Shown here: in pieces, positions 17,388 through 42,414 of the stretch
Position numbering within the stretch: the stretch's first letter is position 1
Layout of the letters: each line of letters starts with the position of its first letter
Source: a virus
IMG/VR virus record: IMGVR_UViG_3300022750_000006
Span: 1 to 42,414 of that record
Strand: one strand, 5' to 3'
Length of the DNA stretch: 42,414 nt
Notes under the pieces: model-generated
The model's input: only the letters and a program-made list of their open reading frames with translations
Told to the model about the DNA's origin: nothing
Database searches by the model: none
Made by a program: the position numbers and the translations under genes

Positions 17388-18233
17388 TTAAAGTGGCTGT
17401 TGCGAAAGTTTGGCGATGTCGGCGCGCACACTGTCGAGCGTGCCCACCACAACGTACAGGGTGAATCGATAGATGCCTTCGACGTTGGTGTCGCGCACGA
17501 CGGCGTTCCACTTCACCACGCCGTCGGCCCGGAAGCGCCAGCGGCCGTAGCCCACCGTCCGGGGCGAATAGATGCCCATGGCATGCTGACCGTTCGGGGT
17601 GGCCAGGATGACCGGCTTCTCTTGCTCGCCCGGGCCGTCCGACAGGTGCGCACCGTCGGCGGTGTAGAACTCGCTGAAGGCGGCCGGCATGTAGGCGGTC
17701 AGCGTTTCGAACGTGGCGGCCTGCTTCTTCGGCACCACGTAGGCCACGTCATAGCGGATCACGGTCGGCGTGACGAACTGGACGCGCTTCTCGAAATAGG
17801 TGTCCGATGTGCGCTGGCCGGCGACCGGGTTCCAGTAGGCCATTTGGCTGAAGGTGCTGATCACGTTGCCGGCGCCGCTCGACTCCACCAGGCGGCTGCT
17901 CGACGGCGACGGGTTGTAGCCGTTGGTCAGGTGCGACGCGCCGGCCTCGGTCGGGTTGTCGTTCTCGCCCTTGCCGTCGTAGGACACCGCGCTTTGCAAC
18001 TGGCGGCCGTGGTCGGTGTCGTTGATGTACTCTACGCCGTTACGCACCAGCGAGCAGATGGCGCCGGCGTCGTGCACGCAGGTGCTGATCGTGGTGCGAC
18101 CATCCGGCGCGGTGATCGAGACAGCCGGCAGCGACGGCCGGTATATCTGCCGTACGCGCTCGGCGTGGGCGTCTTGCATGCCGCCGCACGCGGTGAGCGT
18201 GGCGGCGAGGGCGATTGTGAGGATGGTTTTCAT
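17388..18233 (-). CDS. Phage-encoded lipoprotein, candidate envelope/exclusion factor (281 aa)
   Basis: I chose the ATG at 18233 because GGAG lies upstream and a lipoprotein signal begins there: MKTILTIALAATLTAC with lipobox L-T-A-C (Cys16). The longer frame runs into the promoter. The mature protein is beta-rich and looks like a sandwich fold (SPRTVGYGRWRFRADGVVKW). It is the first gene behind a promoter cassette shared with replication operons, so it is probably made early. An early lipoprotein next to two tiny membrane proteins suggests superinfection exclusion or receptor masking, but that is inference. No family was recognised. Confidence 0.75.
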   Translation of the reverse strand: MKTILTIALAATLTACGGMQDAHAERVRQIYRPSLPAVSITAPDGRTTISTCVHDAGAICSLVRNGVEYINDTDHGRQLQSAVSYDGKGENDNPTEAGASHLTNGYNPSPSSSRLVESSGAGNVISTFSQMAYWNPVAGQRTSDTYFEKRVQFVTPTVIRYDVAYVVPKKQAATFETLTAYMPAAFSEFYTADGAHLSDGPGEQEKPVILATPNGQHAMGIYSPRTVGYGRWRFRADGVVKWNAVVRDTNVEGIYRFTLYVVVGTLDSVRADIAKLSQQPL

Positions 18234-18251: not shown

Positions 18252-18290
18252 GATGTAAGAACTATACACGCAAGTATTTACTTGTGCAAG
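18252..18290 (-). promoter_or_regulatory. Early promoter cassette copy 1 with operator in the spacer
   Basis: The 39-bp sequence is identical to 21317-21355 and 23469-23507. On the minus strand -35 is TTGCAC (18284-18289) and -10 is TATAGT (18261-18266), with 17 bp between them. The operator CGCAAG-TATTTA-CTTGTG (18269-18286) fills the spacer, an ideal place for repression. It drives the lipoprotein cluster. Confidence 0.88.
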
Positions 18291-18294
18291 TTAT

Positions 18295-19695
18295 TTATGC
18301 GTAGCCCTTGGCCTTCATCGCCGCGAGCAGCACGTCCTGCACCGAGCGTTTCGTCTCCACCCGCTCGATCACCATAGAATCTGCGGTTTCCCTCGCGATA
18401 ATGTTGTGAATAAACATCGGCCGATCCTTGCCGGCCTGCATCTGCCGCGTCGGCCCGATGCGCTCGATGATCTGCAGGCGCTGCTCCAGGTTCCAGTCGT
18501 GGCCGAAGAAGGCCATGATGTTGGTGTGCTCCTGCAGGCCGTCGACGCCGTGGCCCATGCTGGCCGGGTGGCCCAGCCACACTTTGCCCTCACCACGCTG
18601 CGCACGCCGCACGCCCTCCTGGCTGTTCAACGCGATGGCGTCCTTGCCGAAGGCCTTCAGCAGGCGCGCAAGGTCGCTTTTAAACTGGATGGATACCAGC
18701 ACCGGCATGCCGGCCGCTTCTTCCACGATGTCCTCCAGCGCGTGGATCTTCGCGTCGTGCACCTCGGCCCATTCGCTACTGCCCGGCGAAAGGTAGGCGG
18801 CGCCGTTGGACAGCTGCAGCAGCTTGCCGATCTTCTGCGCCGCGCCCAGCGCCTCGATGCCGTGCATGGTGCCCATTGCCGCGATCTCCATGAAGGCGCG
18901 CTTCTCCATGTCCTGGTACAGCGCGCGCGCCTTGGCCGGCAGATCGACGTAGATGTTGTTGACGATCGGGTCCTTCAGGTCGAACCAGTCCTTGGCGTCG
19001 ATGGTCACGCAGATGTCGCGCAGCGCGCGCTGGATCTGCTCCTGGGCGTGTTCCATCGGCTCGGTGCCGAAGCCGCTGTACTTCTTGCGGAACCAGCGTT
19101 TCTTGAAGTCGTCGTAGGTGCGGCCGAGGCGCGCGCCCTTGTCCAGGAACCACGCTTGCCCCCACAAGTCCTCAAGGCCGTTGGGTGCCGGCGTGCCGGT
19201 CAGCTCGACGATGCGCTTGATCTTCGTGTGCGCCACCCGGCCCAAGGCCTTGGCGCGCTGGGTGCCTTGCCGCAGGCGGAACCCTTTGAGCTTGGTGGAC
19301 TCGTCGATCACCACCGTGGCGAACGGCCAGCGCTCGCCGAAGTGTTCAACGAGCCAGGGGAGCTGTTCGAAATTAGTTGCGTAGATGTTGGCGTCGTACT
19401 TCAGCGCGCGCATGCGCTCCTTCTCGCTGCCCGTGATCGGCAGCACGGTGAGGTGCCGGAGATGGTTCCATTTACGCACCTCATCGGGCCAGGTGGTCGT
19501 GGCCACCCGCAGCGGCGCGACGACCAGGATTGGGCGGTCGTCGAGCGCCTGCAGGGTGTCCAGTGCGTTGAGCGTGCTGACCGTCTTGCCGAGGCCCATG
19601 CCCGCCCACACGCCGGCTCGGTCGGTGTCGAGGATGAAGTCGGTAATGATCTTCTGGTATGGGCGTGGCGCGAAGTCTTTCGGGACGATGATCAT
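18295..19695 (-). CDS. SNF2/DEAD-like superfamily 2 helicase
   Basis: The ATG at 19695 overlaps the upstream stop and gives 466 residues. Motifs in order are Q-like FAPRPYQKIITDF, Walker A GMGLGKT, VVAPLRV (Ia), Walker B VVIDEST, LTGTPAPN (III), and in the second lobe GHPASMGHGVDGLQ and QIIERIGPTRQ (VI). This is a dsDNA-translocating ATPase of the kind found with phage polymerase, VRR-NUC and primase genes, probably acting in replication or recombination. It is the last gene of its early block, and its stop is five bases before the next cassette. Confidence 0.92.
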   Translation of the reverse strand: MIIVPKDFAPRPYQKIITDFILDTDRAGVWAGMGLGKTVSTLNALDTLQALDDRPILVVAPLRVATTTWPDEVRKWNHLRHLTVLPITGSEKERMRALKYDANIYATNFEQLPWLVEHFGERWPFATVVIDESTKLKGFRLRQGTQRAKALGRVAHTKIKRIVELTGTPAPNGLEDLWGQAWFLDKGARLGRTYDDFKKRWFRKKYSGFGTEPMEHAQEQIQRALRDICVTIDAKDWFDLKDPIVNNIYVDLPAKARALYQDMEKRAFMEIAAMGTMHGIEALGAAQKIGKLLQLSNGAAYLSPGSSEWAEVHDAKIHALEDIVEEAAGMPVLVSIQFKSDLARLLKAFGKDAIALNSQEGVRRAQRGEGKVWLGHPASMGHGVDGLQEHTNIMAFFGHDWNLEQRLQIIERIGPTRQMQAGKDRPMFIHNIIARETADSMVIERVETKRSVQDVLLAAMKAKGYA

Positions 19696-20006
19696 GCGGC
19701 GCGCCTCGCCGCGAGCAGCGCTTTGCACTCCAACCAATCGGCGTGCGCGAAACGCTGGTGCCAGAACGAATTTACGATCCCCGCCGCGTAGGCGTACACC
19801 GCGCGCTCGGCGGCCTCGCGGGTGCCGAACATGCTCGCCCCGTAGAAATGCCGGACCTTGCGGGCGCGGGCGCCATTGCGGAGGATCGCCACCCCGTAGA
19901 TGGCCTTCGGGCCGATGTGGATCTCGCAGTCGGTTAAGCGGACGCCGCACTGCGGGCGTTTGATGTCAAGCACCCACATAGGCCGGGTTTCGTGGGTCAC
20001 GCGCAT
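19692..20006 (-). CDS. Hypothetical protein (104 aa)
   Basis: The ATG at 20006 has a purine-rich ribosome site (GAGGTGGGGG). The product starts MRVTHETRPMWVLDIKR and contains an aromatic/basic segment (FWHQRFAHADWLECKALLAA). It overlaps both neighbours, the upstream gene by 10 bases and the helicase by 4, so it belongs to the operon. No family was recognised. Confidence 0.68.
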   Translation of the reverse strand: MRVTHETRPMWVLDIKRPQCGVRLTDCEIHIGPKAIYGVAILRNGARARKVRHFYGASMFGTREAAERAVYAYAAGIVNSFWHQRFAHADWLECKALLAARRAA

Positions 20007-20353
20007 GGCAAATCCCCCACCTCGTCGCCGAACGCGGCGCGCACGACGGCGCGGCAGATGGCGATCAGCGGGGTGTCGCCTTCGCCACGCGCTGTTTCCG
20101 TGTTGGCGCACCACTCCAGGCGCGCGACCTCGCCGATGTAGCTAAAGCGGTGCTTTTCCAGCAGCGGACCGGACAACGCCCAGTTCGTGCTGTAGTCGAG
20201 CACCTGGACGGCCACGATCTTGCCGGGCGTGCCGCGCAGGTACTGCACGCACAGCGTGCCGTTGGCGCGCAGCTCCAGGTCGGCGGCCGGCACGCCCTCG
20301 GCGCGCGCGGTGTGGTAGTCCAGCTGGGCGCCGGTCAGGTCAGCGGTTCGCAT
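19997..20353 (-). CDS. DUF2591-like phage protein (118 aa)
   Basis: The start MRTADLTGAQLDYHTARAEG is the typical opening of the DUF2591 family of small phage proteins (role unknown). The ATG at 20353 overlaps the upstream gene by 14 bases. The C-terminal part (PLIAICRAVVRAAFGDEV) is also family-like. It is co-transcribed with helicase and nuclease genes. Confidence 0.75.
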   Translation of the reverse strand: MRTADLTGAQLDYHTARAEGVPAADLELRANGTLCVQYLRGTPGKIVAVQVLDYSTNWALSGPLLEKHRFSYIGEVARLEWCANTETARGEGDTPLIAICRAVVRAAFGDEVGDLPCA

Positions 20354-20603
20354 TGCGGGCCTCCAGCATGGCGTCGGCAATTTCGTATGATTGGCGAGCA
20401 TAGCGTTCTGGCGTGCCGCCGTGGGCGATGCAAGCCGGAAGCGCTGCTATGGCGAATTCGTCGCGCAGGGTCTTGTCCGACGTCATCAGAATCGGTGGCG
20501 CTGGCCGAGTGGGCGATTGGAAAAGTCCTTTGTCCGTTGCGCACATCTCGCACTCGGTGCCGAAGGTTGGCTCACCGCACGCGCAGGTTTTAAGGCCGGC
20601 CAT
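20340..20603 (-). CDS. Small zinc-finger-like protein (87 aa)
   Basis: From the ATG at 20603 the N-terminus has a CxC-x8-CxxC pattern (CACGEPTFGTECEMC), a likely zinc site. The second half, LRDEFAIAALPACIA then YARQSYEIADAMLEARN, is a block seen in many small phage early proteins. The function of that block is unknown. It overlaps neighbours on both sides. Confidence 0.72.
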   Translation of the reverse strand: MAGLKTCACGEPTFGTECEMCATDKGLFQSPTRPAPPILMTSDKTLRDEFAIAALPACIAHGGTPERYARQSYEIADAMLEARNANR

Positions 20604-20797
20604 CACGCCACCTCGCACAGGTAGCGGCCGGCCAGAACGGCGATCGTTTCGTGCTGCTTGTCGGTCAGCGGCGAGGCGTGCTCGTACAGGTAGGCGACCA
20701 TGGCGCTGTCCGGCGCCGGCAGGGTGTTGCGCACCTGGGCCAGCGCTTTCAACTGCGCGGCGCGGCGGGTGTGGAGGGTTTCGATAGAGCGAGGCAT
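20603..20797 (-). CDS. Hypothetical helical protein (64 aa)
   Basis: ATG at 20797 follows AAAGGAA. The product is helical (MPRSIETLHTRRAAQLKALA). It overlaps the next start by one base. Its leader contains the 18-base sequence also found before the tail chaperone gene on the other strand. Confidence 0.68.
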   Translation of the reverse strand: MPRSIETLHTRRAAQLKALAQVRNTLPAPDSAMVAYLYEHASPLTDKQHETIAVLAGRYLCEVA

Positions 20798-20819
20798 GGT
20801 GGTTCCTTTCTTGGGAGGA

Positions 20820-21053
20820 TTAAGGGTACTCGATTCCGAAGTGCTGCTTTATTTTCGCCCGGACCTCCGGGGTGTCTTTAAGCAATCCTGTCGGGCTGCA
20901 CATGATCTTACGGGCCTTGCGCTCTTTGCCGCGCGGTGGGCACATCAGCGCGACCAGGGCGGGGTGTTCTTGCGGTAGGACTTCACCGCGCCGCCAGGCG
21001 TCTGGGTTGCCCTCGTAAAGGTGCAACCCGTTGATGATGGCAAACTGCGCCAT
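20820..21053 (-). CDS. Hypothetical protein (77 aa)
   Basis: The start overlaps the previous stop (TGATG). The middle is very basic (PPRGKERKARKIMCSP), which would suit nucleic-acid contact. The C-terminus is LLKDTPEVRAKIKQHFGIEY. No family was recognised. Confidence 0.68.
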   Translation of the reverse strand: MAQFAIINGLHLYEGNPDAWRRGEVLPQEHPALVALMCPPRGKERKARKIMCSPTGLLKDTPEVRAKIKQHFGIEYP

Positions 21054-21289
21054 CAGTTGAAATACGAAGGGTAACGGTTGCGGAAGATGGCGACGTCATC
21101 GCCGGCCAGGGTCAGCACTTCGTAGCCGCCATCAGCGGCCAGAAGGCTGACGATGGTGTCGTCTGGATAGACGTAGAACGATTGGCGGGCGCGAACGCCG
21201 CGCACCTGGTCGTCGAACACGCATGCGGCCGAAACTACTTCGGTCAGGCATTCGGTGGCGATGTCTTGAAACAGGTTCGATGCGTTCAT
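21053..21289 (-). CDS. Hypothetical protein, first gene after promoter cassette 2 (78 aa)
   Basis: I chose the ATG at 21289 (GGAG upstream). The longer frame starts inside the promoter. The product begins MNASNLFQDIATECLTEVV and ends in a beta-rich acidic part. It leads the operon that ends with the helicase. Confidence 0.7.
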   Translation of the reverse strand: MNASNLFQDIATECLTEVVSAACVFDDQVRGVRARQSFYVYPDDTIVSLLAADGGYEVLTLAGDDVAIFRNRYPSYFN

Positions 21290-21316
21290 TTTATTCTCCA
21301 GGTGGTTTGTAGTGCC

Positions 21317-21355
21317 GATGTAAGAACTATACACGCAAGTATTTACTTGTGCAAG
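21317..21355 (-). promoter_or_regulatory. Early promoter cassette copy 2 with operator in the spacer
   Basis: The 39 bp are identical to the copies at 18252 and 23469. -35 TTGCAC is at 21349-21354, -10 TATAGT at 21326-21331, spacer 17 bp, operator CGCAAG-TATTTA-CTTGTG at 21334-21351. The last codons and stop of the upstream gene lie inside this cassette. It drives the 21289-18295 block, helicase last. Confidence 0.88.
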
Positions 21356-21531
21356 ATTTTATTGCGCACCTCGATCAGCGCCTTGTAATTGACCTCGGTG
21401 TGGAAGCGACCCTTGCACTGGGCCAGCTTGTCAATGGCCGCTTCGAGTTCGGCGATGCGCGCCTGAGCTTCCGCGAGGCCCTGTTCGTTAAGCTGGCGCA
21501 GCGTGCGCTCGAACCAGATATCGCCGCTCAC
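21343..21531 (-). CDS. Small coiled-coil protein (62 aa)
   Basis: The GTG start at 21531 overlaps the VRR-NUC stop (GTGA). The product is a short helix-rich protein (LAEAQARIAELEAAIDKLAQ). Its stop codon TAA is provided by the operator of promoter cassette 2, so insertion of the cassette may have set its C-terminus. Confidence 0.65.
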   Translation of the reverse strand: MSGDIWFERTLRQLNEQGLAEAQARIAELEAAIDKLAQCKGRFHTEVNYKALIEVRNKILHK

Positions 21532-21848
21532 GACAGCACCTCGTCGACGCCTTCCAGCGAGTCGATAACCACCACCCGCTGCCCCATCTTGCGCATGCGC
21601 GCGTGCTCGCGGGCCTGGTGCGGCTCGGCCTTTTTGCCGGGGGCTTTGAGTTCGATCCAGATGGTTTGCGCATTGCGCACCACCTGGCGGAAAGCTCCAA
21701 CGCCGCCGATCTTATCCGGCAGCATCACCAGTCGATCCGGCGCGCCCGGCCGGCCGATGAACTGGATCTTGCGGCACTCGCCGCCCAGTTCCTTGACGCG
21801 CTTGACCAGGTACTTTTCGATATCGCTCTCGCGCAGGGGGCGTTTCAT
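21528..21848 (-). CDS. VRR-NUC domain nuclease (106 aa)
   Basis: This is a stand-alone VRR-NUC domain of the PD-(D/E)XK superfamily. Visible motifs are RESDIEKYLVKRVKELGG at the N-terminus, GRPGAPDRLV (catalytic Asp), and IWIELKAPGKKAEPHQ (E-x-K) followed by AREHARMRKMG. Such phage proteins are structure-specific (Holliday-junction-like) nucleases often found beside SNF2-type helicases, as here. Confidence 0.9.
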   Translation of the reverse strand: MKRPLRESDIEKYLVKRVKELGGECRKIQFIGRPGAPDRLVMLPDKIGGVGAFRQVVRNAQTIWIELKAPGKKAEPHQAREHARMRKMGQRVVVIDSLEGVDEVLS

Positions 21849-22081
21849 CGTGGCACCCGCACGCCGGTGAGCCAGGCCCAGGTGTCGTAAGCGCCGCGCG
21901 TGCGGTCGCGCATTTCTTTGAGAGCCGTGCCGATGCTGGGCGCGCGTTGTACCTTGCGCACCGTAAATGAGCCGTCGGGGTTCTTCCGTTTATAGACGGT
22001 CACGCCGGGATCGCGGCCCCGTACATGGCGGTCTTGTATCTTCTCGAGGTAGGCACCCTCGGTCTTATTGCGGCTTTGCAT
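21845..22081 (-). CDS. Hypothetical basic protein (78 aa)
   Basis: ATG at 22081 follows GAGGTG. The protein is basic (VTVYKRKNPDGSFTVRKVQR) and ends WAWLTGVRVPR. It overlaps the nuclease gene, so joint function in DNA processing is possible. No family was recognised. Confidence 0.68.
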   Translation of the reverse strand: MQSRNKTEGAYLEKIQDRHVRGRDPGVTVYKRKNPDGSFTVRKVQRAPSIGTALKEMRDRTRGAYDTWAWLTGVRVPR

Positions 22082-22259
22082 TTTTCACCTCGCAAAGGTA
22101 GTTGATGGTGCCGGCCGGGGTGACTTCCTTGATGCGGACGCAGCTGAGGGTTTCCGTTTTGGCGGGTGCTGGTGTGGCGCTGAAAAACCCCACCAGGATT
22201 ATCAACGCCATGCCCAAGGCCCAAGCCACGACGAAGACGGGGATGATGTGGCGCGTCAT
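22065..22259 (-). CDS. Small membrane-anchored protein (64 aa)
   Basis: One N-terminal hydrophobic helix (VFVVAWALGMALIILVGFF) follows a short basic start (MTRHI), giving an inner-membrane anchor or uncleaved signal. The rest is a 35-residue segment with two cysteines that could form a disulfide in the periplasm. The start overlaps the upstream stop (ATGA), and the 3' end overlaps the next gene by 17 bases. Confidence 0.68.
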   Translation of the reverse strand: MTRHIIPVFVVAWALGMALIILVGFFSATPAPAKTETLSCVRIKEVTPAGTINYLCEVKNAKPQ

Positions 22260-22528
22260 GGCTTCACACCGTAGGGCGCCTCAAACGCTGGGTGGGCGCC
22301 GACGTAGCGGTCTACTTGAATCGGTGCCGGCAGCACCGGTGCGTACCCCGCAATAAGCAGCGCCAGCGGGTCGGCGCCGTCGAGCACGCCGAACCAGTGC
22401 ACCTCGCCGTGCGAACACATCGGGACGACTTTGTAGACGCGGGCGTGGATCGAAACACCCATCATCGTACCGTGGACTTCGACGCGCTGGCCGGCGGCCG
22501 GGCCGCCGAGGAGGAGAACGGTTTTCAT
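22256..22528 (-). CDS. Hypothetical protein (90 aa)
   Basis: It begins MKTVLLLGGPAAGQRVEV, a short beta-rich motif seen in small phage proteins of unknown role, not a P-loop because it lacks GK[ST]. It overlaps both neighbours by 4 bases. Confidence 0.68.
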   Translation of the reverse strand: MKTVLLLGGPAAGQRVEVHGTMMGVSIHARVYKVVPMCSHGEVHWFGVLDGADPLALLIAGYAPVLPAPIQVDRYVGAHPAFEAPYGVKP

Positions 22529-22785
22529 TTTGGAATCCGATCGATCAGGAACTGCACTTTTGCCTCGTCGGTGATTCCGTCACCGACGTTCCATTCTTCG
22601 TTGTATTCGTGGATCAGTGCAGCTTCCAGCAGTGCTACACGACGGGCCAGCGGCTCCACCAACTGGTTAAATTCCATGGTGTAGCCCCGCGCGCCCGGCC
22701 AACCTTCACCCCGGCGCTCGTAGCTTATCTGATCGGCGGCGATCACCACGGCGTACTTACCGTCGAGCAGTTCGATGCGCGTCAT
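22525..22785 (-). CDS. Hypothetical protein (86 aa)
   Basis: The ATG at 22785 overlaps the stop of the HTH gene. The product begins MTRIELLDGKYAVVIAADQI and is acidic toward the C-terminus. No family was recognised. Confidence 0.65.
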   Translation of the reverse strand: MTRIELLDGKYAVVIAADQISYERRGEGWPGARGYTMEFNQLVEPLARRVALLEAALIHEYNEEWNVGDGITDEAKVQFLIDRIPK

Positions 22786-23018
22786 TTCACCGCCTGCTGC
22801 GGGCCGTGGGTGATGAAGGTCTTGATCTCGCGCACGGCCATGCCGGTGGCCAGGTGCAGCTTGATCACCATGCTGGCACCCACCGGCAGGCGGGCGTGGC
22901 GGATCTTGCTGGCGACCGGCGGCGCCACTTCCAGCGCGCGGCACAGTGCGGCGTCGTTCTTGCACTTCAAGATGTCGGCGGCCAGGTCGAGCAGCGCGTT
23001 TTCGTTTTTCGTGTTCAT
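22782..23018 (-). CDS. Small helix-turn-helix DNA-binding protein (78 aa)
   Basis: A Cro/CI-like helix-turn-helix is visible at residues 22-68: DAALCRALEVAPPVASKIRH, then LPVGASMVIKLHLATGMAV. It is a candidate regulator of early promoters and is expressed from promoter cassette 3, so it could feed back on it. Compare the tandem-HTH protein at 31272, which is the other candidate. Confidence 0.78.
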   Translation of the reverse strand: MNTKNENALLDLAADILKCKNDAALCRALEVAPPVASKIRHARLPVGASMVIKLHLATGMAVREIKTFITHGPQQAVK

Positions 23019-23045
23019 GGTGTTTGTCCTTGGGAGGGTGGGGTT

Positions 23046-23219
23046 TTACTTCAACTGATCGGCGCGGGCGGACACTTCTTTCAACATAGCATCGGCTACC
23101 TGCCCGGCCCAGTGGGCGAAGTCCTTCGGGCTGTTGCACCCGGTGTTCGGATTGGCGGCGACACCAGCGAGGACAGCGGCGGCGAAATCGCACCACAGTT
23201 CGTATCTTGTTTTTGGCAT
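23046..23219 (-). CDS. Hypothetical protein (57 aa)
   Basis: ATG at 23219 follows a strong ribosome site (GGAGAACGAT), the same leader used by the gene at 27280. The product begins MPKTRYELWCDFAAAVLAG and contains a tryptophan-bearing helix (DFAHWAGQVADAMLKEV). It starts directly after an intrinsic terminator, so it is probably expressed by read-through. Confidence 0.7.
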   Translation of the reverse strand: MPKTRYELWCDFAAAVLAGVAANPNTGCNSPKDFAHWAGQVADAMLKEVSARADQLK

Positions 23220-23231
23220 ATCGTTCTCCAG

Positions 23232-23252
23232 AAAAAGCCCGCCGAAGCGGGC
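23232..23252 (-). terminator. Intrinsic terminator inside the early operon
   Basis: On the minus strand GCCCGC-TTCG-GCGGGC is followed by TTTTT. It lies just after the 59-residue gene and immediately before the next gene's ribosome site. It should limit transcription past the first gene, and so attenuate the block unless there is antitermination. Confidence 0.82.
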
Positions 23253-23259
23253 AGTGTGG

Positions 23260-23439
23260 TTAGCGGGCGTTGGCGGCGTCGTGAATGTCGGAAGCCAGTT
23301 TCAGGTAGGCGCCGGCGCCGAACACCAGATCGTAGGCCACGTCCAGCGGCATACCCTTTTCGACGTTGACCAGTACCTTGGCCAGAACGATGGCGGCGTT
23401 GCCGGCGTTTGCTGCTGCGATTTGGTTGATTGCGTTCAT
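23260..23439 (-). CDS. Small helical protein, first gene after promoter cassette 3 (59 aa)
   Basis: ATG at 23439 follows GGAG. The product MNAINQIAAANAGNAAIVLA continues with KVLVNVEKGMPLDVAYDL and ends HDAANAR. It is alanine-rich and amphipathic. It lies between promoter cassette 3 and a terminator, so it should be the most abundant early transcript of this block. No family was recognised. Confidence 0.72.
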   Translation of the reverse strand: MNAINQIAAANAGNAAIVLAKVLVNVEKGMPLDVAYDLVFGAGAYLKLASDIHDAANAR

Positions 23440-23468
23440 GGTGTTTTCTCCGAGTGGTTTGCGCTGCT

Positions 23469-23507
23469 GATGTAAGAACTATACACGCAAGTATTTACTT
23501 GTGCAAG
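23469..23507 (-). promoter_or_regulatory. Early promoter cassette copy 3 with operator in the spacer
   Basis: The 39 bp are identical to the copies at 18252 and 21317. -35 TTGCAC is at 23501-23506, -10 TATAGT at 23478-23483, spacer 17 bp, operator CGCAAG-TATTTA-CTTGTG at 23486-23503. It drives the 23439-21343 block. A relic of a polymerase 3' end abuts it upstream. Confidence 0.88.
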
Positions 23508-23570
23508 TTATTTTTTGTAGCGGTACGACTCGAAGCCGGCGGCGGCCAGCGGCATGTCCAAGGCCCACGG
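23508..23570 (-). pseudogene. Relic of a second DNA polymerase 3' end
   Basis: After the real polymerase stop, the minus strand encodes PWALDMPLAAAGFESYRYKK and a stop. The real polymerase ends WAEGLPLAAAGFEAYRYRKD. Fourteen of 19 aligned residues are the same, but the codons differ, so this is a diverged homologue and not a fresh duplication. It directly abuts the promoter cassette and is probably a recombination scar. Confidence 0.8.
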
Positions 23571-23580
23571 GGGTGGGGCG

Positions 23581-25827
23581 TCAATCCTTCCGGTATCGAT
23601 ACGCCTCGAAGCCGGCCGCCGCCAGTGGCAAACCCTCGGCCCAGTCGGGCGCCTCGGCCATGAGTTCGGCCAGGTGCTCGGCGTTGTACTGCGGCTCGTC
23701 GGGCGCCTCGGCCAGAATCTCGTCGTGGATGGTCAGCACGATCTGGTAGCCGGCCTTTTCGATCGCCACCATGCTCGACGCCATCACGTCGCGCGCGACT
23801 GCTTGCGTTATGTTTTCGACAATTTTTCCGGAATATGTGTCGATGCGGCCCCACTTCCGGCTGTACTGATTCACCCCGGCGTAGGTGATTTTCGTCCGGC
23901 CGCCCTCGCACGCCGGCTCCTGGCCTTGGCATGCGTAGCATAATTCACGGTGCGCCACGCTTGGGGGCTCTTCGCCTTGCCAGCCGCCGACCAGCACTGT
24001 GTGGGTGCCGCCGCACGCCGCACATTCGCCGGCGGAATCGACCTCAAAATTGCGCTTTTTCTTCTCGGCTTCCAGCTTCGGCGCCGGGTAGCAAAGCGCA
24101 CGGCCTGAGGGCAGCACGATGCGCAGCCAGGCGCCGTCGCGGCGGATCTTGAGCATGCGCACCTGCACGGTGCTGCTCGGCGTGCTGATGGCCTCGCGCA
24201 CCGCCGTGTCGACGTCGCGCCACAGCTGCACCACGTTAGCGTGGGCGTCGCGCCAGCCGAGTTTCAGCGACTCGCATACCAGCCAGGCGCGATCGGACAG
24301 TCCGAGCAGCGCGGCGGGGTCGCGCCCCTTGCTGCGGTGCCAGTCGAGCATAATGTTGGCTTGACCCCACACATTGCCGGGGATCGAGCTTTGCGCGCTG
24401 TTGGCCAGTTCTTCCAGGTCGATGCCATAGCCGGCCGCGAAGGTGACGAACGCGCCCACCCCGCCCTCGTAGCCCAGGGCGAGTTCTTGAACCTTGCCTT
24501 TTTGTCTATCCGCTTTGCTAACAGTTTTCGGGTCTACCCCGAACGACTTCGCATAGGACAAAATGTACAGGTCCAGTCCGGTGCCCGCGTCGTAGTCGCG
24601 GAACGCCTTGAGCTTCCAGGTCTCACCCGCCAGCCAGGCCAGCACCCGACCCTCGATGTTGGACAAGTCGGCCACCACCAGCTTCTTGCCGGCCGGCGCG
24701 GTGATGCAGCCACGAATGGCGTTGCTCGTCAGCTGCATCACGTTGTCGTAGAGCATATCGGCGATGCCGGCCTTCAGCGCGTCAATGCCCAGTTCGATGT
24801 CCGGGTTCTTCATAGTTGGCCGAGGTAGATTATCCGGCTGGAATAGCCGGCCCGCCCAGCGGCCGGTGCGTGCGGCGCCGCAGTATTGCTTCGTGCCCCG
24901 CAGCCGGCCGTCGCTGCTCACGCAGTTCATCAGCGCCGTGTACTTGCTGGTGCTGGTGGTGGTGGCCTGCAGGCGGATGCGCAGCAGTTCGCGCAAGCCC
25001 TCGGGCAGCTCGGGGTCGGCGATGCGCCGCTCCAAGGTGGACTTCTGCATGTCGGGCAGATCGACGCCGTACTCGGTCAGAATGTGCAGCATCATGGCGT
25101 CGCGCTTGGTCGCGCTCTCCACCTCGCCGGACGTCATATCGAACGTCTGCTCGCGCAGCGCCACCTGGGCGACGTCCACCGCCGCGACAGCAGCGCGCGC
25201 CAGATCGATGTCCATGCACATGCCGCGCCGGTTGATGGTCTGGTCGACGTGGAACACCGCGCGCTCCCCGACCAGGGCGCAATTCCATTTCGGCATGCGC
25301 TTGTAGCACTCGCGCATGGCGACGATATCGAGCGAGGCGTAATCCTTGAAGCGCGCCCACTCGACCGGGTGCGTGGCAGCAGTGGCGCGTCCGCGCTTGA
25401 GGTTGCCGGCCGGCGGGATACAAAACAGGCGAATCAAATCCTTGCCGGCCTTGTCCTTGGCCTTGTCGCTCGGCACACCCAGCACCTCGCACAAGGCCCC
25501 TAGCGAACCGGGCAGACTGTGCTGTAGCGCTTGGACCATGGTATCGTGCAGACGCGCCAGTGGAATGTCGATGCCGAGCGCCACCGCCAGGATGGTGGTG
25601 TCGAACATCGAGCCGTTGTGCCACACGGTGGTGATCTCGTCGTCGACGAGGATCGCCGCTAGGTCGTCGGGCATCGGCGCGCCGCTGGTCAGATCCCACA
25701 CCTTGACCGGGCCATCTTCCAACGCATAGGCCCACAGCAGCACCTCGGCGCCCTCGGCGTAGGCCCACGCGCCGTTGCGGATCGGGACAGTGGAGAAGGT
25801 TTCGAGGTCGTGCCAGGAAAGTTTCAT
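23581..25827 (-). CDS. Family A DNA polymerase with 3'-5' exonuclease domain
   Basis: The 748-residue enzyme should replicate phage DNA. Exonuclease motifs are WHDLETFS (ExoI), VWHNGSMFDTTIL (ExoII) and KDYASLDIVAM (ExoIII). Polymerase motifs are A VVADLSNIEGRVLAWL near residue 385, B-like KGKVQELALGYEGG near 445, and C LTIHDEILAE near 700. Between B and C, residues about 600-645 hold a cysteine-rich insert (CAACGG, CYACQGQEPAC) that looks like a zinc ribbon. The ATG at 25827 overlaps the upstream stop, and a GTG one codon earlier is also possible. There is no 5'-3' exonuclease domain, which is usual for phage enzymes. Confidence 0.95.
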   Translation of the reverse strand: MKLSWHDLETFSTVPIRNGAWAYAEGAEVLLWAYALEDGPVKVWDLTSGAPMPDDLAAILVDDEITTVWHNGSMFDTTILAVALGIDIPLARLHDTMVQALQHSLPGSLGALCEVLGVPSDKAKDKAGKDLIRLFCIPPAGNLKRGRATAATHPVEWARFKDYASLDIVAMRECYKRMPKWNCALVGERAVFHVDQTINRRGMCMDIDLARAAVAAVDVAQVALREQTFDMTSGEVESATKRDAMMLHILTEYGVDLPDMQKSTLERRIADPELPEGLRELLRIRLQATTTSTSKYTALMNCVSSDGRLRGTKQYCGAARTGRWAGRLFQPDNLPRPTMKNPDIELGIDALKAGIADMLYDNVMQLTSNAIRGCITAPAGKKLVVADLSNIEGRVLAWLAGETWKLKAFRDYDAGTGLDLYILSYAKSFGVDPKTVSKADRQKGKVQELALGYEGGVGAFVTFAAGYGIDLEELANSAQSSIPGNVWGQANIMLDWHRSKGRDPAALLGLSDRAWLVCESLKLGWRDAHANVVQLWRDVDTAVREAISTPSSTVQVRMLKIRRDGAWLRIVLPSGRALCYPAPKLEAEKKKRNFEVDSAGECAACGGTHTVLVGGWQGEEPPSVAHRELCYACQGQEPACEGGRTKITYAGVNQYSRKWGRIDTYSGKIVENITQAVARDVMASSMVAIEKAGYQIVLTIHDEILAEAPDEPQYNAEHLAELMAEAPDWAEGLPLAAAGFEAYRYRKD

Positions 25828-26102
25828 CACGCCCCGTCCTTTGCCTGCTGGTAGGCTTGGCCTGGCAGTGCCGCTTTTTCTTCAGCGGTCAGAAGGTAGT
25901 GGTACAACGCCGGCAGTTCGTGTGGCTTGGCCCATTCAAAGCACGGCCGTCCGTTGCTGTATATGCGGGCGCCCCGGTGCGGGCCGAAACCGCACACCTG
26001 CGGGATGCGAATTTGCAGGCCGTGCTTTTTAGTTGTGCGGCGGTCACCGGTCTTCGGCTTCGCGCGCGCGGGTGCGCTGCTGTAGTGGATGGTAAGGTTC
26101 AT
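25827..26102 (-). CDS. Hypothetical basic protein (91 aa)
   Basis: The protein lies directly upstream of the polymerase and overlaps it. It is basic in the first half (ARAKPKTGDRRTTKKHGLQI) and has an aromatic segment (ALYHYLLTAEEKAALPG). The start overlaps the previous stop. It could be a polymerase accessory by position only. Confidence 0.68.
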   Translation of the reverse strand: MNLTIHYSSAPARAKPKTGDRRTTKKHGLQIRIPQVCGFGPHRGARIYSNGRPCFEWAKPHELPALYHYLLTAEEKAALPGQAYQQAKDGA

Positions 26103-26524
26103 TGGGTCAAATCCTCAAAATCGTTAATCGGGCCGCACTTCGCAACGGCAGCGCGGCACACGTCGCTGGCGGCGCAGACGGCCACCACCCGCTGGCACAT
26201 GTCCACGTCGAACAGCACCATGTGGCAGGCGGACACCGGCAGGTGCAACTGGATCGCCAGCCAGTCATAAGCCGAGCGGCGCGACATGGCGCCGGATTTC
26301 CACAGCGGATCAAACGCGTTGTGCGCGGCGATGCGTGCGCGGGCCAGTGCGCTGCCGGGCGGCGCCTTCATGGCGCGCCGGTCGATGAACGACTCGGGCG
26401 GTACGTGCATAGCGCGCTGGTCGGCCTGTCGCACCTCGGCCTGCTTCTTCGGGCTGCGGTTGCCGAAGAACCGACGTCGGCTAGTGCCGATGTACTTGTC
26501 TTCGTGGTCGTCAAAGTAGGTCAT
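26099..26524 (-). CDS. DUF3268-like phage protein lacking the usual zinc finger (141 aa)
   Basis: The C-terminal two thirds (ARIAAHNAFDPLWKSGAMSR, AYDWLAIQLHLPVSACHMVL, FDVDMCQRVV) match what I recall of the zinc-finger-containing DUF3268 family. Members normally begin with a CxxC zinc ribbon. Here the N-terminal 60 residues are instead polar and basic (GTSRRRFFGNRSPKKQAEV) with no cysteine pair. Either the finger was lost or it is supplied by the cysteine-rich neighbour at 26739. Confidence 0.75.
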   Translation of the reverse strand: MTYFDDHEDKYIGTSRRRFFGNRSPKKQAEVRQADQRAMHVPPESFIDRRAMKAPPGSALARARIAAHNAFDPLWKSGAMSRRSAYDWLAIQLHLPVSACHMVLFDVDMCQRVVAVCAASDVCRAAVAKCGPINDFEDLTQ

Positions 26525-26526
26525 GG

Positions 26527-26742
26527 CTAGCCCCTGCCATCCCATTTCGTGACGATATGGGCGACGGGGTTGCCCCGCGAATTGTGCACCACCAGGCCTT
26601 GATCGTATCGGATGCCGGTTGCGGTGGCCACACAGCCGGGGCAGCTATCCACGATGGAAGCCAGCACCGACACCAAGTCTTTGGCGAGGTGCACCTCGAA
26701 CTCTTGCACCTCCTGCTTTTGTTTCGGATCGTAAAGTTTCAC
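26527..26742 (-). CDS. Hypothetical protein (71 aa)
   Basis: I prefer the GTG at 26742, which overlaps the upstream stop (GTGA) and lies 8 bases after AAGGAG. A TTG two codons earlier is possible. The product contains CPGC in the middle (VDSCPGCVATATG) and an alternating beta pattern. No family was recognised. Confidence 0.65.
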   Translation of the reverse strand: MKLYDPKQKQEVQEFEVHLAKDLVSVLASIVDSCPGCVATATGIRYDQGLVVHNSRGNPVAHIVTKWDGRG

Positions 26743-27056
26743 GGCCAATACTCCTTCGGTATGTCCTCATGCGCAACGCCACGGGCGCGCGCCTGGTTGT
26801 AAATGCCGTGCGGGTGTTGGTCGCACGACGGGTGGGTGATGCGGTGCGGGAATGTCTTGTTCGGGTCGTCCTCGCACAGCGGGCCGGCGCAGTGGCACAG
26901 CCCGCGCTTGTTGTAGGCCCGCTGCTCGATCCGCCAGCCCTTGCGCGAGCCGCACACCGAGCAGCGGGGCACGACCTTGTAGTCGTCGGGGTGGGTGCGC
27001 GACACGCGGCGGTGCCGGCATTGGCCGTTGCGGCAGCGGATCGAGTAGGTGGACAT
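26739..27056 (-). CDS. Cysteine-rich zinc-finger protein (105 aa)
   Basis: ATG at 27056 overlaps the upstream stop. Several Cys pairs are visible: CRNGQCRHRR, PRCSVCGSRKGW, LCHCAGPLC, followed by HRITHPSC. This is the pattern of small phage zinc-ribbon proteins found among replication genes. The spacing suggests two zinc sites. Nucleic-acid or protein bridging is likely, but the substrate is unknown. Confidence 0.75.
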   Translation of the reverse strand: MSTYSIRCRNGQCRHRRVSRTHPDDYKVVPRCSVCGSRKGWRIEQRAYNKRGLCHCAGPLCEDDPNKTFPHRITHPSCDQHPHGIYNQARARGVAHEDIPKEYWP

Positions 27057-27280
27057 TACGCCGGCGCCGTAAGGCCGCGCCACCGTTCGCCGCGCGTGTC
27101 GCCGTGGCCGAAGCAAGTCCATTCGCGCTCGTCGTTATGGCACCAGCGTGCGCCATCCCAGTAGCGAACAGTGTCAGCGCTCTCGGCCGTGTCACTTGCA
27201 TAGGCTACGTCGTAGAACCCCGGCCGCGCCGGGTTTCCGTCTTTGTTGATGCTAAACCACCGCGTAAATTCGATTGCCAT
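27056..27280 (-). CDS. Hypothetical protein (74 aa)
   Basis: ATG at 27280 follows GGAGAACGAT. The composition is tryptophan-rich (TRWFSINKDGNPARPGFYDV, WDGARWCHNDEREWTC), a pattern of small phage proteins with an SH3-like or beta fold. It begins directly after an intrinsic terminator. Confidence 0.68.
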   Translation of the reverse strand: MAIEFTRWFSINKDGNPARPGFYDVAYASDTAESADTVRYWDGARWCHNDEREWTCFGHGDTRGERWRGLTAPA

Positions 27281-27291
27281 ATCGTTCTCCA

Positions 27292-27315
27292 GAAAATGCC
27301 CGGCGCGAGCCGGGC
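27292..27315 (-). terminator. Intrinsic terminator after the ssDNA-binding protein gene
   Basis: On the minus strand GCCCGGC-TCGC-GCCGGGC is followed by ATTTTCT. It sits between the DUF2815 gene and the next early gene. As at 23232, it touches the following ribosome site, so it probably gives partial termination and keeps the ssDNA-binding protein abundant. Confidence 0.78.
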
Positions 27316-27322
27316 GGTGGGT

Positions 27323-27871
27323 TTAGATCATGCTGTCGGCGTCGGCGCCGTCCAGGGCGTCGAAGTCATCTTCGTCGGCTGCGCTGCCGCCACCGGCGAA
27401 CGCATCGCCGTCGCTGTGGAACTGGATGCCGCCCAGCTGCGCGTTGATGCGCTTGCCGTAGCTGTTGTCCTGCGCCCACAGTTCCAGCGACACGTTGACG
27501 AAGCAGCCCGAGTACAGGATGCCATCGGCTTCGGTCAGCGGCGCTTTGTCGCGGCCGAGGGTCAGCGGGCGGGTCTTGGTGCGCGAGCTGATGAACATGT
27601 TGCCTTCGAAGCCGTCGTACTGGGACTTGGTGTCGCCGTTATGCAGCGCCAGCTTGTCGGATGCCTTCATCTGTTTCATGATGGCATCTGCCTTGGCGCC
27701 CCACTTGTTTTTCGCCACTTCCACCTGAGCGGCTTCGATCATCTTGATCTGAGGGTCGTCCGGCAGGATGATGAACGAGGACGAGAACGCCGGCTCACCT
27801 TCGCCGTTGACGGTTTCAGCTTTCCAGCACTTCAGGAAGGCAGCGCGGACTTTGGTCAGTTTGATTTTCAT
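27323..27871 (-). CDS. DUF2815-type single-stranded DNA-binding protein
   Basis: The 182-residue protein matches the DUF2815 family, related to T7 gp2.5-type ssDNA-binding proteins. Recognisable blocks are KCWKAETVNGEGEPAFSSSF near the N-terminus, LHNGDTKSQYDGFEGNMFI, and GILYSGCFVNVSLELWAQ. The C-terminus is strongly acidic and ends in hydrophobic residues (DEDDFDALDGADADSMI), the usual tail by which SSBs dock partner proteins. The neighbouring DUF2800 protein ends in a very similar tail. Confidence 0.88.
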   Translation of the reverse strand: MKIKLTKVRAAFLKCWKAETVNGEGEPAFSSSFIILPDDPQIKMIEAAQVEVAKNKWGAKADAIMKQMKASDKLALHNGDTKSQYDGFEGNMFISSRTKTRPLTLGRDKAPLTEADGILYSGCFVNVSLELWAQDNSYGKRINAQLGGIQFHSDGDAFAGGGSAADEDDFDALDGADADSMI

Positions 27872-27898
27872 GGTAGATTTTCTCTCAAGTTTGATAAA

Positions 27899-29470
27899 TT
27901 AAAGGAGGTCGGACAGGTCGTCCGCGTCGGACAATGCTTCAAAATCGTCGGCCACCGGGGTGATCACCACCGCTGGTCGTTTGTCGGCCGCTGGCGCCAC
28001 GGACAGGCCGCCCTCGCTGCGGGTGATGAGCGCCTGCAACTTCGGCCATTGCTTCTTGCCGATGATGCCGTCCGCGTACAGCTTCTCGGCCGTGGTCGGG
28101 CTGATCAGCGTCCAGTCGTACATCACGTCTTGCTTCAGGCGCATCGACTTCATCATCTTCTCGGCCTCGGCGGCGTCCGAGAACTTGCGGATACCCTCGC
28201 GGCCCTTTACCAGCTTGAAGCCGGGCACCTCGCCGCCGGCCAGTATGCGCCGCTCCAGCTCAGCGCGCACCGCCTTGGCCCAGCCTTCGACCAGGTCGAT
28301 GGCCTCGCCCAACAGGCCAAGCTGCTCGTCGCTTGCACTGGTCAGCCGCGCCTCGTGATTCTCCAGGGCCGGGCGCAGGGTGGGCTTTTTGACGATGAAG
28401 TACGCAGGCGCGTAGTGGTCTGGCCGGTCGTCCGCGCTTTCAAAGTCCACCTTGCCCGGCGCTACACCGTGCGCCGCCGCGATGATCTTCTCGGCGTCGA
28501 TGATGGACACCGCGATCTCGCCTTTTCCAAGTGCGATGAGGTTGTCGACCACTGGCTTGGGGAACTGATCCACCAGGTCGCCGTGGGGGTCATGCAGATC
28601 GTCCGTCAGAACTTCGAAGTCGCCTGCCACCGTCGCCAGCACCTGGTCGCGCAGCGCCGGGCAAGTCGCCTTGGCTTTGCACCAGCGGCATTGGTCGGGA
28701 CCGGGGGACAGCGCGTGGATCGGCTGCACGTCGGGCAAGTACAGTTCGGCGATGCTCAGGGCTTCCTTGCCGGCGGCGATCGCCCGCTGCTCGAACGCCC
28801 GCAGATATTCAACACTGCAAGTCCAGCTGTCCGAGTGATTGAGGCGTGGCTGGTCGATGGTCATTTCGACTTCCTCGATCTCGCCTAGCAGGTCGAACTC
28901 GTCCAGCGCGCCGAGGGCGTAGAGCATCAGCTGCTCGTTGCCGTCGCGGCCCACTTCCACCAGCTTGGTGCTGCCGTCTTCCTGCGGTTCAAAGTCGTAT
29001 CGCGGTGTGGATGCATAGACCTGCACGCCACGTCCGTATTTCAGATCCCGGATCTTCAATTTCTTCGGGAAAATGATAACGGTGTCTGATGTGCCGAACT
29101 GGTCGGGGATCACGCCGCCGAAGATCGGCAGGCGCTGCTCGACGTGCAGCTCGCCGCCCTGCGCCGCTTCGCGCACCGCGTCGATGTACTTCTGCACCTC
29201 GCGGCACATGTCGGCGTCGGCATGGAACGCGCCGCTGTTGCCGTTGTCGGTCCAGTCGGTGGTCCCCTTGACCACCTGAATCCAGCGGCCCAAGAAGAAC
29301 TTCGCATCGTGTTCACCCTCCAGGCACTCGGACGCCAGGAAGTGCGCGGCGGTGCCCTCGTCGGCGAACTCGCTGCCCTTGTCCGGGATGCCGGCCTCCA
29401 TGGTCAGCGAGCCGGCGCAAGCCATCCACCGCTTGGCGCCGCTCGGGGAGAGTTTGGCGTGTGCGGCCAC
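27899..29470 (-). CDS. DUF2800 protein (Cas4/AddB-like PD-(D/E)XK nuclease)
   Basis: The 523-residue protein begins [18 protein letters not shown] and continues [13 protein letters not shown], the DUF2800 signature. Nuclease-type residues lie around [20 protein letters not shown] (D then D-x-K). A later cysteine triad ([16 protein letters not shown]) with the early Cys in WMACAGS fits a Cas4-like [4Fe-4S] cluster. It probably processes DNA ends for recombination or replication. The start is GTG. The C-terminus ([16 protein letters not shown]) mimics the ssDNA-binding protein tail. Confidence 0.85.
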
Positions 29471-29472
29471 GA

Positions 29473-29976
29473 TCAGCCCCGCGCGGCCAGGATCTTGTCG
29501 CAGGCGGCGACGACGGCGCCGAACTTGTCAGCCGGCAGCATGTCGGCCTTGGCGTAGGTCAGTTCCTTGCCGACGCCGAACGAGGCCAGCAGGTCTACCA
29601 TTTCCTGCTTGTTCTTGCCCACCTGGACCAGCTTAGGCTTGACGTCCTTCTCGTATTCCAGCGGAGTGGAGTCGGCCAGTGGGTCGTCTTCCTCGACGAC
29701 CGGCGCGGCGGACGCTTCCTTCTCTGCCTTGGCGCGGGCCAGTGCATCGGCCACGGCTTCCTTGGCGGTGCTCGGCTTGCGGTCGGCTTCGACAGAGGCC
29801 ATGACCTTCTTCTGCTCGGCCTTGGCGTCGGTTTCCACCTTGGTGACGTCCGCTTCGATGGTGTCGGCGGCGACAACCGTCGGGGCGCTGGATGCGATGT
29901 AGTCGTGGCGGGGGTTCGACTTGGCCAGATTGTTGATCGCGGCGGCCAGTTCCAGGATTGCGTTTTCAATGCTCAT
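29473..29976 (-). CDS. Hypothetical coiled-coil protein, first early leftward gene (167 aa)
   Basis: ATG at 29976 follows AGGAA. The N-terminus is [19 protein letters not shown], followed by an acidic alanine-rich helix ([17 protein letters not shown]) and a C-terminal domain ([17 protein letters not shown]). It is the first gene leftward from the divergent control region. I do not know its function. Confidence 0.72.
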
Positions 29977-30027
29977 AAGATTATTCCTAGTGGGTTGTGG
30001 GGTTTGTCCGAATCGACAGGGAGAATG

Positions 30028-30107
30028 ATTACACAAGGATTTACGATACGCAAGCAATTTCTTGCGAATATTTATTACTTGCGTAAAGTAACAGTGTGGT
30101 TTATGCT
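30028..30107. promoter_or_regulatory. Divergent early control region with a four-half-site operator
   Basis: The inner operator CGCAAG-CAATTT-CTTGCG is at 30049-30066. Outer half-sites CACAAG (30032-30037) and CTTGCG (30078-30083) are exactly symmetric about its centre, each 23 bp away. The leftward promoter is TTGCTT (30052-30057) with TGTAAT (30028-30033), 18 bp apart. The rightward promoter is TTGCGT (30079-30084) with TATGCT (30102-30107), 17 bp apart. Bound protein would cover both -35 boxes. Confidence 0.78.
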
Positions 30108-30133: not shown

Positions 30134-31258
30134 ATGGTGATGTATAACGAGATCAACAAGTACATGGCGCAGTGGCTGCGCAACCTGATAGCCGCTGGCC
30201 TGATCGCCGACGGTGTCGTGTGGGAATGCAGTATCGAAGATATCAAACCGGAGGATCTTAATGGATTTACACAGTGTCACTTCTTCGCCGGACTCGGCGG
30301 ATGGAGCCTGGCTCTCCGAGCTGCTGGGGTCCGGGACGACGAGCGCGTCTGGTCTGCCAGTTGCCCGTGCCAGCCTTTCAGCGCGGCAGGCGCGGGAGCA
30401 GGGTTTGCTGATGAGCGGCACCTCTGGCCGGTCGTCGAACACCTCGCCCGCGAGTGCCGCCCTGCAAGAATCGTTGGTGAGCAGGTTGCAAGCCGCGACG
30501 CAGAGCCTTGGCTCGACCTTGTACAAGATGACATGGAAGCCTTGGGCTATGCCTTCGGGGCGGTCGCGTTTCCGTCTGCGGGCGTCGGTGCTCCGCACAT
30601 CAGAGACCGCACGTACTGGTTGGCCGACGCCGATCGCGAACGAAGCAAAGGCGGGCTTGCACTGCGCGAACCAGGTGACGGTTTCAATGGCGGCGCAGCT
30701 GGCCGGCTGGGTGACGCCCACCACCAGAGACTGGAAGGACAGCGGCGCGGACATCAGACCGAGGGCGGACGGGTCGGAGCGGTTCGACCAGCTGCCGCGC
30801 CAGGCGAATCTGGCGGGCTGGCCGACACCAATGGCCGGGACGCCGGCGCAGAACGGCAACAACGCGGCGGGGGACAACGACAGCAGCCGCAAGACGGTGG
30901 ACTTGTGCGGATGGCCGACGCCAGTAGCGAACGACTCGACGGGTTCGACCCATTGCTACAGTGGGACGGCACCCGACGGATCGCGGGGCTTGGCGTGGAA
31001 GCTCTCGGGCGCGGCCCGGTTGCTGGGTTCTGGCGAGATTCTGACTGGCTCCGCTGCCGGGATGATGGGTCTGCCGCCCGGGTGGGACGAGGCCGCGCCG
31101 ATTGGCATGCCCCCGCCGGTAAAGAAGGCCAAGGCCACCGCGCCGGGCGTCTCGCCGGATACGGCAACGCGATCAACATCGAAGCGGCGCGCATCTTCAT
31201 CGAATGTGCCTTCGGAACTGTCCGACCTGTTGTAGAAGACCTCAGCGATTTAATTTAA
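30134..31258 (+). CDS. C5 cytosine DNA methyltransferase
   Basis: The ATG at 30134 (AAAGGAA upstream) gives 374 residues. An N-terminal helical part (WLRNLIAAGLIADGVVWECS) precedes the catalytic motifs: I CHFFAGLGGWSLAL, IV SCPCQPFSAAG with catalytic Cys79, VI RIVGEQVASRD, VIII HIRDRTYWLAD, and X AGYGNAINIEAA. The enzyme probably methylates phage DNA to escape host restriction. No cognate endonuclease is visible. The target-recognition region is a series of LADA-like units separated by polar spacers. A long second ORF overlaps nearly the whole gene. Confidence 0.9.
   Translation: MVMYNEINKYMAQWLRNLIAAGLIADGVVWECSIEDIKPEDLNGFTQCHFFAGLGGWSLALRAAGVRDDERVWSASCPCQPFSAAGAGAGFADERHLWPVVEHLARECRPARIVGEQVASRDAEPWLDLVQDDMEALGYAFGAVAFPSAGVGAPHIRDRTYWLADADRERSKGGLALREPGDGFNGGAAGRLGDAHHQRLEGQRRGHQTEGGRVGAVRPAAAPGESGGLADTNGRDAGAERQQRGGGQRQQPQDGGLVRMADASSERLDGFDPLLQWDGTRRIAGLGVEALGRGPVAGFWRDSDWLRCRDDGSAARVGRGRADWHAPAGKEGQGHRAGRLAGYGNAINIEAARIFIECAFGTVRPVVEDLSDLI
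30261..31235 (+). CDS. Overlapping ORF nested in the methyltransferase gene (324 aa, GWPTP repeats)
   Basis: In the +1 frame relative to the methyltransferase, ATG at 30261 follows a near-perfect ribosome site (GGAGG, 6 bases spacing) and the frame is open for 324 residues. The product starts MDLHSVTSSPDSADGAWLSE, has YKMTWKPWAMPSGRSRFRLR, and carries four repeat units: TGWPTPIANEAKAG, AGWVTPTTRDWKDSG, AGWPTPMAGTPAQNG and CGWPTPVANDSTG. These are the same bases as the LADA units of the methyltransferase. From memory, similar GWPTP-rich hypothetical proteins occur in phages, which I could not check. High GC makes chance overlapping ORFs common, so translation is unproven. Confidence 0.6.
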   Translation: MDLHSVTSSPDSADGAWLSELLGSGTTSASGLPVARASLSARQAREQGLLMSGTSGRSSNTSPASAALQESLVSRLQAATQSLGSTLYKMTWKPWAMPSGRSRFRLRASVLRTSETARTGWPTPIANEAKAGLHCANQVTVSMAAQLAGWVTPTTRDWKDSGADIRPRADGSERFDQLPRQANLAGWPTPMAGTPAQNGNNAAGDNDSSRKTVDLCGWPTPVANDSTGSTHCYSGTAPDGSRGLAWKLSGAARLLGSGEILTGSAAGMMGLPPGWDEAAPIGMPPPVKKAKATAPGVSPDTATRSTSKRRASSSNVPSELSDLL

Positions 31259-42286: not shown

Positions 42287-42414
42287 AACGTAAAGATGCC
42301 GGACTCCTGCTGCACAAGAATTTCGCCTTCAAGGCGGATTCTGTCGCCGACGACGGCACCTTTACCGGCTACGGCTCGGTGTTCGGCAACGTCGACAGCT
42401 ATAACGAGATCGTC
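42283..42414 (+). CDS. Prohead protease, N-terminal part (gene continues at base 1)
   Basis: ATG at 42283 overlaps the portal stop. The first 44 codons reach the window end. Bases 42288-42414 repeat bases 1-127, so the coding sequence joins the frame at base 2 to give about 230 residues. See the entry at 2-688 for function. Confidence 0.93.
   Translation, partial: MKRKDAGLLLHKNFAFKADSVADDGTFTGYGSVFGNVDSYNEIV
42288..42414. repeat. Terminal repeat, copy 2 (circular-assembly overlap)
   Basis: This is an exact copy of bases 1-127. Trimming one copy closes the genome into a 42,287-bp circle with an intact protease gene. Confidence 0.93.

Follow-up and report, generated by a model that had tools for sequence, protein, structure and literature searches.

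A probable phage-wide operator set of a tandem Cro-type repressor within dispersed early promoters

Introduction

The immunity repressor of cluster A mycobacteriophages has two DNA-binding domains, one more conserved and the other differing among relatives, and many dispersed sites (PMC9283540; PMC6550527). These sites, the stoperators, are asymmetric 13-bp sequences located mostly outside promoters, and the phages that carry them are temperate (PMC9283540; PMC6550527). The Cro protein of the telomere phage phiKO2 binds one single operator (PMC4997575). Short repeats before several genes of a single virus are represented by the start-associated sequences of cluster K phages (PMC3203893) and by the intergenic repeats of halovirus HF2, which are reported to carry promoters (PMC8707807); the accessible parts of both accounts describe no Cro-type operator inside a bacterial promoter.

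Here we analyzed the 42,414-bp IMG/VR virus record IMGVR_UViG_3300022750_000006 (its whole length is called the window below). We estimate a probability of about two in three that a series of palindromes in the window constitutes a phage-wide operator set of a Cro-type repressor encoded at 31272. Among published systems, the cluster A stoperators and the telomere-phage Cro come closest. Dispersed sites are a feature in common with cluster A, and the one candidate phage protein is predicted to have two helix-turn-helix (HTH) units, one of them variable, which may both bind DNA. Unlike stoperators, these sites are palindromic and lie inside promoters instead of being asymmetric and outside them; both domains of the protein resemble Cro, and the records studied revealed no lysogeny genes.

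The C-terminal half of the 31272 protein is like the all-alpha Cro proteins (Xfaso1, N15, P22; Pfam P22_Cro and YdaS_toxin) in fold and signature, its gene likewise adjoins a divergent control region, and palindromic candidate operators lie in promoters. It differs from them in being fused to a second, truncated and hypervariable HTH; the candidate operators are spread over the early genes, and no CI-type partner or integrase was found here. The phages of the GB2A/RW group (Riverwalkvirus, PMC11053796) have a homologous single-domain Cro beside the primase and GCAA-N8-TTGC at promoter-like sites, but in them the right arm of the palindrome mostly overlaps the -35 box and the copies are non-identical. 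The words repressor, promoter, operator and lysogen are absent from the GB2A paper (PMC11053796). A description of such a regulon was not found in the open-access literature; for subscription journals, which were mostly outside the coverage, this is weak evidence.

Results

A palindrome in a repeated promoter

A pattern scan of the window for CRCAAG-N6-CTTGYG confirmed the four exact sites predicted at 18269, 21334, 23486 and 30049 and revealed none elsewhere, compared with about 0.013 matches expected from first-order Markov simulations of the window (mean 0.013, maximum 1). When two mismatches were allowed, 25 further matches were obtained, which is near the background of 14 ± 4. The first three sites are on the minus strand, each in an identical 32-bp element, CTTGCACAAGTAAATACTTGCGTGTATAGTTC, of the structure TTGCAC-N17-TATAGT. 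Since these three sites represent one and the same element, the independent sequences here number two rather than four: the promoter repeat and the 30-kb region. The original prediction placed the palindrome inside the 17-bp promoter spacer; all three promoters are indeed present, but the palindrome is not wholly within the spacer, as it shares the last three bases of TTGCAC and stops 2 bp short of TATAGT.

As judged from the sequence, three minus-strand early units start from one identical host-type promoter with a palindrome between -35 and -10. Copy 1 (18259-18290) has its -35 box TTGCAC at 18289-18284, the palindrome at 18286-18269 and the -10 box TATAGT at 18266-18261, and the unit behind it is headed by a lipoprotein-like gene (17388-18233). 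This gene was found with at least 92% identity in five relatives and was not found in the others. Copy 2 (21324-21355, minus strand) is followed by a first gene at about 21053-21289, and copy 3 (23476-23507, minus strand) by a first gene at 23260-23439. In several relatives copy 3 is accompanied by a second, overlapping palindrome 17 bp upstream, which has one mismatch in the window. It should also be noted that the segment 23512-23570, between this promoter element and the polymerase gene, resembles the 3' end of that gene, as if it were a stump left after replacement of the gene.

The promoter element in related phages

The relatives comprised seven IMG/VR contigs encoding a 31272-like protein (66–98% identity), two further contigs with the promoter element, and a tenth on a contig assigned by binning to a Novosphingobium genome, the only relative revealed by a scan of isolate genomes. 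The contig JAPLPG010000203.1 (L063) is binned with Novosphingobium, yet the 22782 homologues point to Oxalobacteraceae, and the binning may be wrong. The ends of the window (1-127 and 42288-42414) are identical over 127 bp, which suggests a closed circular assembly; terminal overlaps of 127 bp, as in circular assemblies, were found in the window and four relatives (G003, G005, G006 and G007), and these five records look complete.

In total, the window and the ten related contigs contain 32 copies of the 32-bp element, placed before genes and without a single mismatch. The initial search used the exact 18-bp core, which favours identity; it was repeated with up to 11 mismatches in 32, and no degenerate copies with 1 to 8 mismatches were found in the window or the relatives. 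Three copies are present in each contig, the exceptions being a 7-kb fragment and G010, whose four copies include one on the plus strand. The flanks of the copies are unrelated, the first downstream genes belong to 21 families across the 32 copies, and the leaders are shuffled among sites and phages. In G005, the plus promoter of the control region bears the -10 end of the dispersed element. The element would therefore appear to act both as a promoter and as a recombination joint, and recombination, rather than selection for binding, could largely account for the identity of its copies.

The divergent control region at 30 kb

The divergent region is built from the same half-sites, as far as the sequence can tell. 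Its inner palindrome, the candidate operator at 30049-30066 (CGCAAGCAATTTCTTGCG; GCAA-N8-TTGC), is conserved in eight of nine phages, the window included; the divergent operator of G007 has a 13-bp insertion. The half-sites at 30032, 30049, 30061 and 30078 are placed as symmetrically as had been claimed. It had further been proposed that the outer half-sites cover both -35 boxes, and this holds for the right one, which coincides with the -35 box of the plus promoter, but not for the left one. The left outer half-site (CACAAG, 30032-30037) is present in the window but not conserved, with the variants CACAAG, CACACG, CACATG, CACAAC, CACACT and CATAAC among the nine phages, and it falls within the spacer of the putative minus promoter; we therefore rejected it as a conserved operator.

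The putative minus promoter (30025-30053, minus strand) consists of TTGCGT (30053-30048), a 17-bp spacer and the likely -10 box AATCAT (30030-30025). Its -35 box (TTGCGY) coincides with the left inner arm of the operator and is kept in all nine phages, while the -10 box is weaker and less strictly kept. This promoter would drive the 29473-29976 gene and the exonuclease, SSB and polymerase genes. The putative plus promoter (30079-30107, plus strand) is composed of TTGCGT (30079-30084), N17 and TATGCT (30102-30107), can be read as TTGCGY-N17-TATNNT in the phages compared, and would serve the operon that includes primase and the Cro gene. Both promoters are recognizable in nine of nine phages. 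Judging by this geometry, a protein occupying the palindrome would obstruct the minus promoter and lie near position -56 of the plus promoter. Methyltransferase-like cargo separates the plus promoter from the Cro gene in some relatives, as in the window at 30134-31258; it is absent in G002 and G007.

The tandem Cro protein encoded at 31272

The proposed regulator (31272-31622, plus strand, 116 aa) was characterized by Pfam, alignment, AlphaFold2, Foldseek and a PDB profile search. It is predicted to contain two HTH units, a conserved C-terminal Cro domain (residues about 47-116; 31410-31619) and a truncated N-terminal copy, and thus differs from the single HTH of about 60–70 residues that is usual, although not essential, for Cro proteins. 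YdaS_toxin and P22_Cro both match above the cut-off, the scores being 53.1 bits against PF15943 (cut-off 30) and 43.1 bits against PF14549 (cut-off 30.2). The AlphaFold2 model (pLDDT 81.5) has the Cro fold, its best Foldseek match being Xfaso1 Cro (3bd1; E 1.8e-3, 37% identity over the domain), and the PDB profile search matched Xfaso1 and N15 Cro (E 5.9e-6). In two relatives the plus-strand genes begin with the Cro gene; in the others it lies a short way downstream of the plus promoter.

Among close relatives the C-terminal unit is nearly invariant. The first unit has a hypervariable segment, residues about 14-36 (31311-31379), which comprises helix 2 and the recognition helix and is bordered by nearly identical DNA. 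Mean pN and pS are 0.46 and 0.55 in this segment, compared with a pN of at most 0.022 and a pS of 0.08–0.17 elsewhere. As pS is raised as well, whole-segment exchange and point mutation under selection are equally likely. We also considered that the control region might covary with the hypervariable helix; this was rejected, no covariation being visible, since the window, G003 and G005 share nearly the same control region and have different helices.

Similar palindromes in distant phages

Directly before its primase, Caulobacter phage GB2A encodes a single-domain protein homologous to the C-terminal Cro (41%); the phage has no homologue of the 22782 protein. We found eight distinct GCAA-N8-TTGC sites at promoter-like sequences of GB2A, two of them repeated in the terminal repeats. 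In the deposited annotation seven of these sites are intergenic, and the remaining one falls in the 5' end annotated for gp008c, for which our own gene caller places the start later. The GB2A paper makes no mention of these eight palindromes, which are present in the GB2A entries L075, L078 and L079.

In 46 further GB2A-type Cro loci, GCAA-N7-TTGC was represented by 20 distinct sites and other spacings by 3–12. A ribosome-binding site and a start codon were located near 18 of these 20 sites, the background rate being 43%. Two loci, L118 and L121, carry GCAAG-N6-CTTGC. In gene-called contigs the intergenic sites numbered nine of 11 (GB2A, N8), five of six (G011, N7), three of six (G012, N7) and four of eight (G014, N8), and the intergenic enrichment was specific to the spacing, as neighbouring spacings did not show it. 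The binomial values, from 6e-9 (GB2A) to 9e-4 (G012), were obtained with a simple in-house gene caller and are too small because the sites were treated as independent. In G014 the sequence GCAAGTAAATGCTTGC is nearly the same as ACAAGTAAATACTTGC of the window.

Thus, distant phages that have a homologous single-domain Cro and lack 22782 contain RCAA-N7/8-TTGY palindromes in their promoters. They are not fully independent of the window, as they share its replication module. Not all Cro clades behave in this way: no enriched spacing was revealed in the gene-called contigs of G017 and G019 (clade A Cro) and of G013, with a similar SHQAVY helix, and no GCAA-N8-TTGC sites were found in Klebsiella phage Kp4865-4 and contig L064, which have more distant Cro matches. 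An unbiased whole-genome search for enriched 4-mer palindromes was swamped by coding composition and was uninformative.

Discussion

The data are well explained by one DNA-binding protein running the regulon, as originally predicted: this claim is well supported by conservation across the window and its ten relatives and by the parallel combinations of Cro and palindromes in distant phages, from which the binding itself is inferred. Two candidates for this protein had been named, 31272 and a second HTH protein of 78 aa (22782-23018, minus strand) encoded in the unit that begins at the 23476-23507 element; both genes are kept in the relatives covering them. The 22782 protein might be the regulator, repressing from its operon the dispersed promoters and its own synthesis, with 31272 doing something else. 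Its gene lies within the regulated block and is present in the window and all nine relatives covering the region, and its putative recognition helix, [AS][PA]PVxSKxRH, is well conserved even where that of 31272 has changed. Nevertheless, the protein is missing from GB2A and the other distant phages with the same operator core, no convincing palindrome of this kind was found near the genes of its plasmid homologues (Janthinobacterium, Massilia), and its Pfam match is sub-threshold only. We consider this assignment unlikely and 22782 disfavoured as a general binder; because the operator core occurs in distant phages without it, 31272 is favoured. The 31272 protein is the likely, not proven, operator binder, in view of the clades without sites and of the helices that changed over unchanged elements: the C-terminal recognition helices of G007 and G010 are different (TRMSVYIW and TPQAIQDW), yet their dispersed elements are the same.

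It is also conceivable, at rather long odds, that no regulator is involved and that the element is a strong host-type promoter whose copies recombination keeps identical, the palindrome being incidental. Identity of all copies over 32 bp exceeds what an operator needs and, like the shuffled leaders, is a sign of recombination at the element. Genes for an exonuclease and a Gp2.5-like ssDNA-binding/annealing protein are present in the phage. Such an explanation does not account for the palindrome core at 30 kb and in distant phages, where it has non-identical flanks, keeps its arm spacing and is tied to promoters. Very improbable, in our opinion, is recognition of the palindrome by a host regulator or lysogeny repressor in a temperate phage or plasmid-like carrier. 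Some temperate phages, among them the cluster A mycobacteriophages (PMC6550527), typically have dispersed operators, and one relative was binned with a Novosphingobium genome; that binned genome (G010) contains one other pattern match only, outside the phage contig. No tyrosine integrase, serine recombinase/resolvase, ParA or S24 repressor was found in nine IMG/VR records (the window and eight relatives, G010 excluded), which include the five that look complete, and no lambda-type immunity region with a CI-type S24 repressor and an integrase was revealed in the nine. For the same reason shut-off of early/middle genes fits better than lysogeny; of the roles proposed originally, early-gene shut-off is the better one and the lysis/carrier or lysogeny decision is left without any support. 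The minus block contains helicase, polymerase, SSB and exonuclease genes, and from gene content and operator position the best reading is that Cro shuts off early/middle genes.

Under the Cro reading, the plus promoter would make Cro along with the primase-side genes. As Cro accumulates, its C-terminal domain would dimerize on RCAA-N8-TTGY and block RNA polymerase at the three dispersed promoters and the minus promoter, turning down the early/middle genes. The 32-bp element could serve as a loading dock, so that new genes arriving behind it would fall under Cro control at once, and recombination would keep its copies identical; this role is suggested by the different accessory genes found behind unchanged copies. 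An exact-copy promoter could explain how such phages gain early genes with control kept. The system provides a case, amenable to testing, in which many dispersed early promoters may be run by one small Cro-type repressor in phages without recognizable lysogeny genes; Cro would then be used outside the lysis-lysogeny switch. Since the operator core also occurs in the cultivated Caulobacter phage GB2A, the idea can be tested at the bench.

More tentatively, and with the odds against it, the tandem Cro may split its jobs: the C-terminal domain would read the fixed operator, and the N-terminal helix, under diversifying selection, would read or evade phage-specific targets such as the operators or anti-repressors of competing phages. 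If so, a split-job Cro would represent an immunity-type specificity module in phages showing no lysogeny genes.
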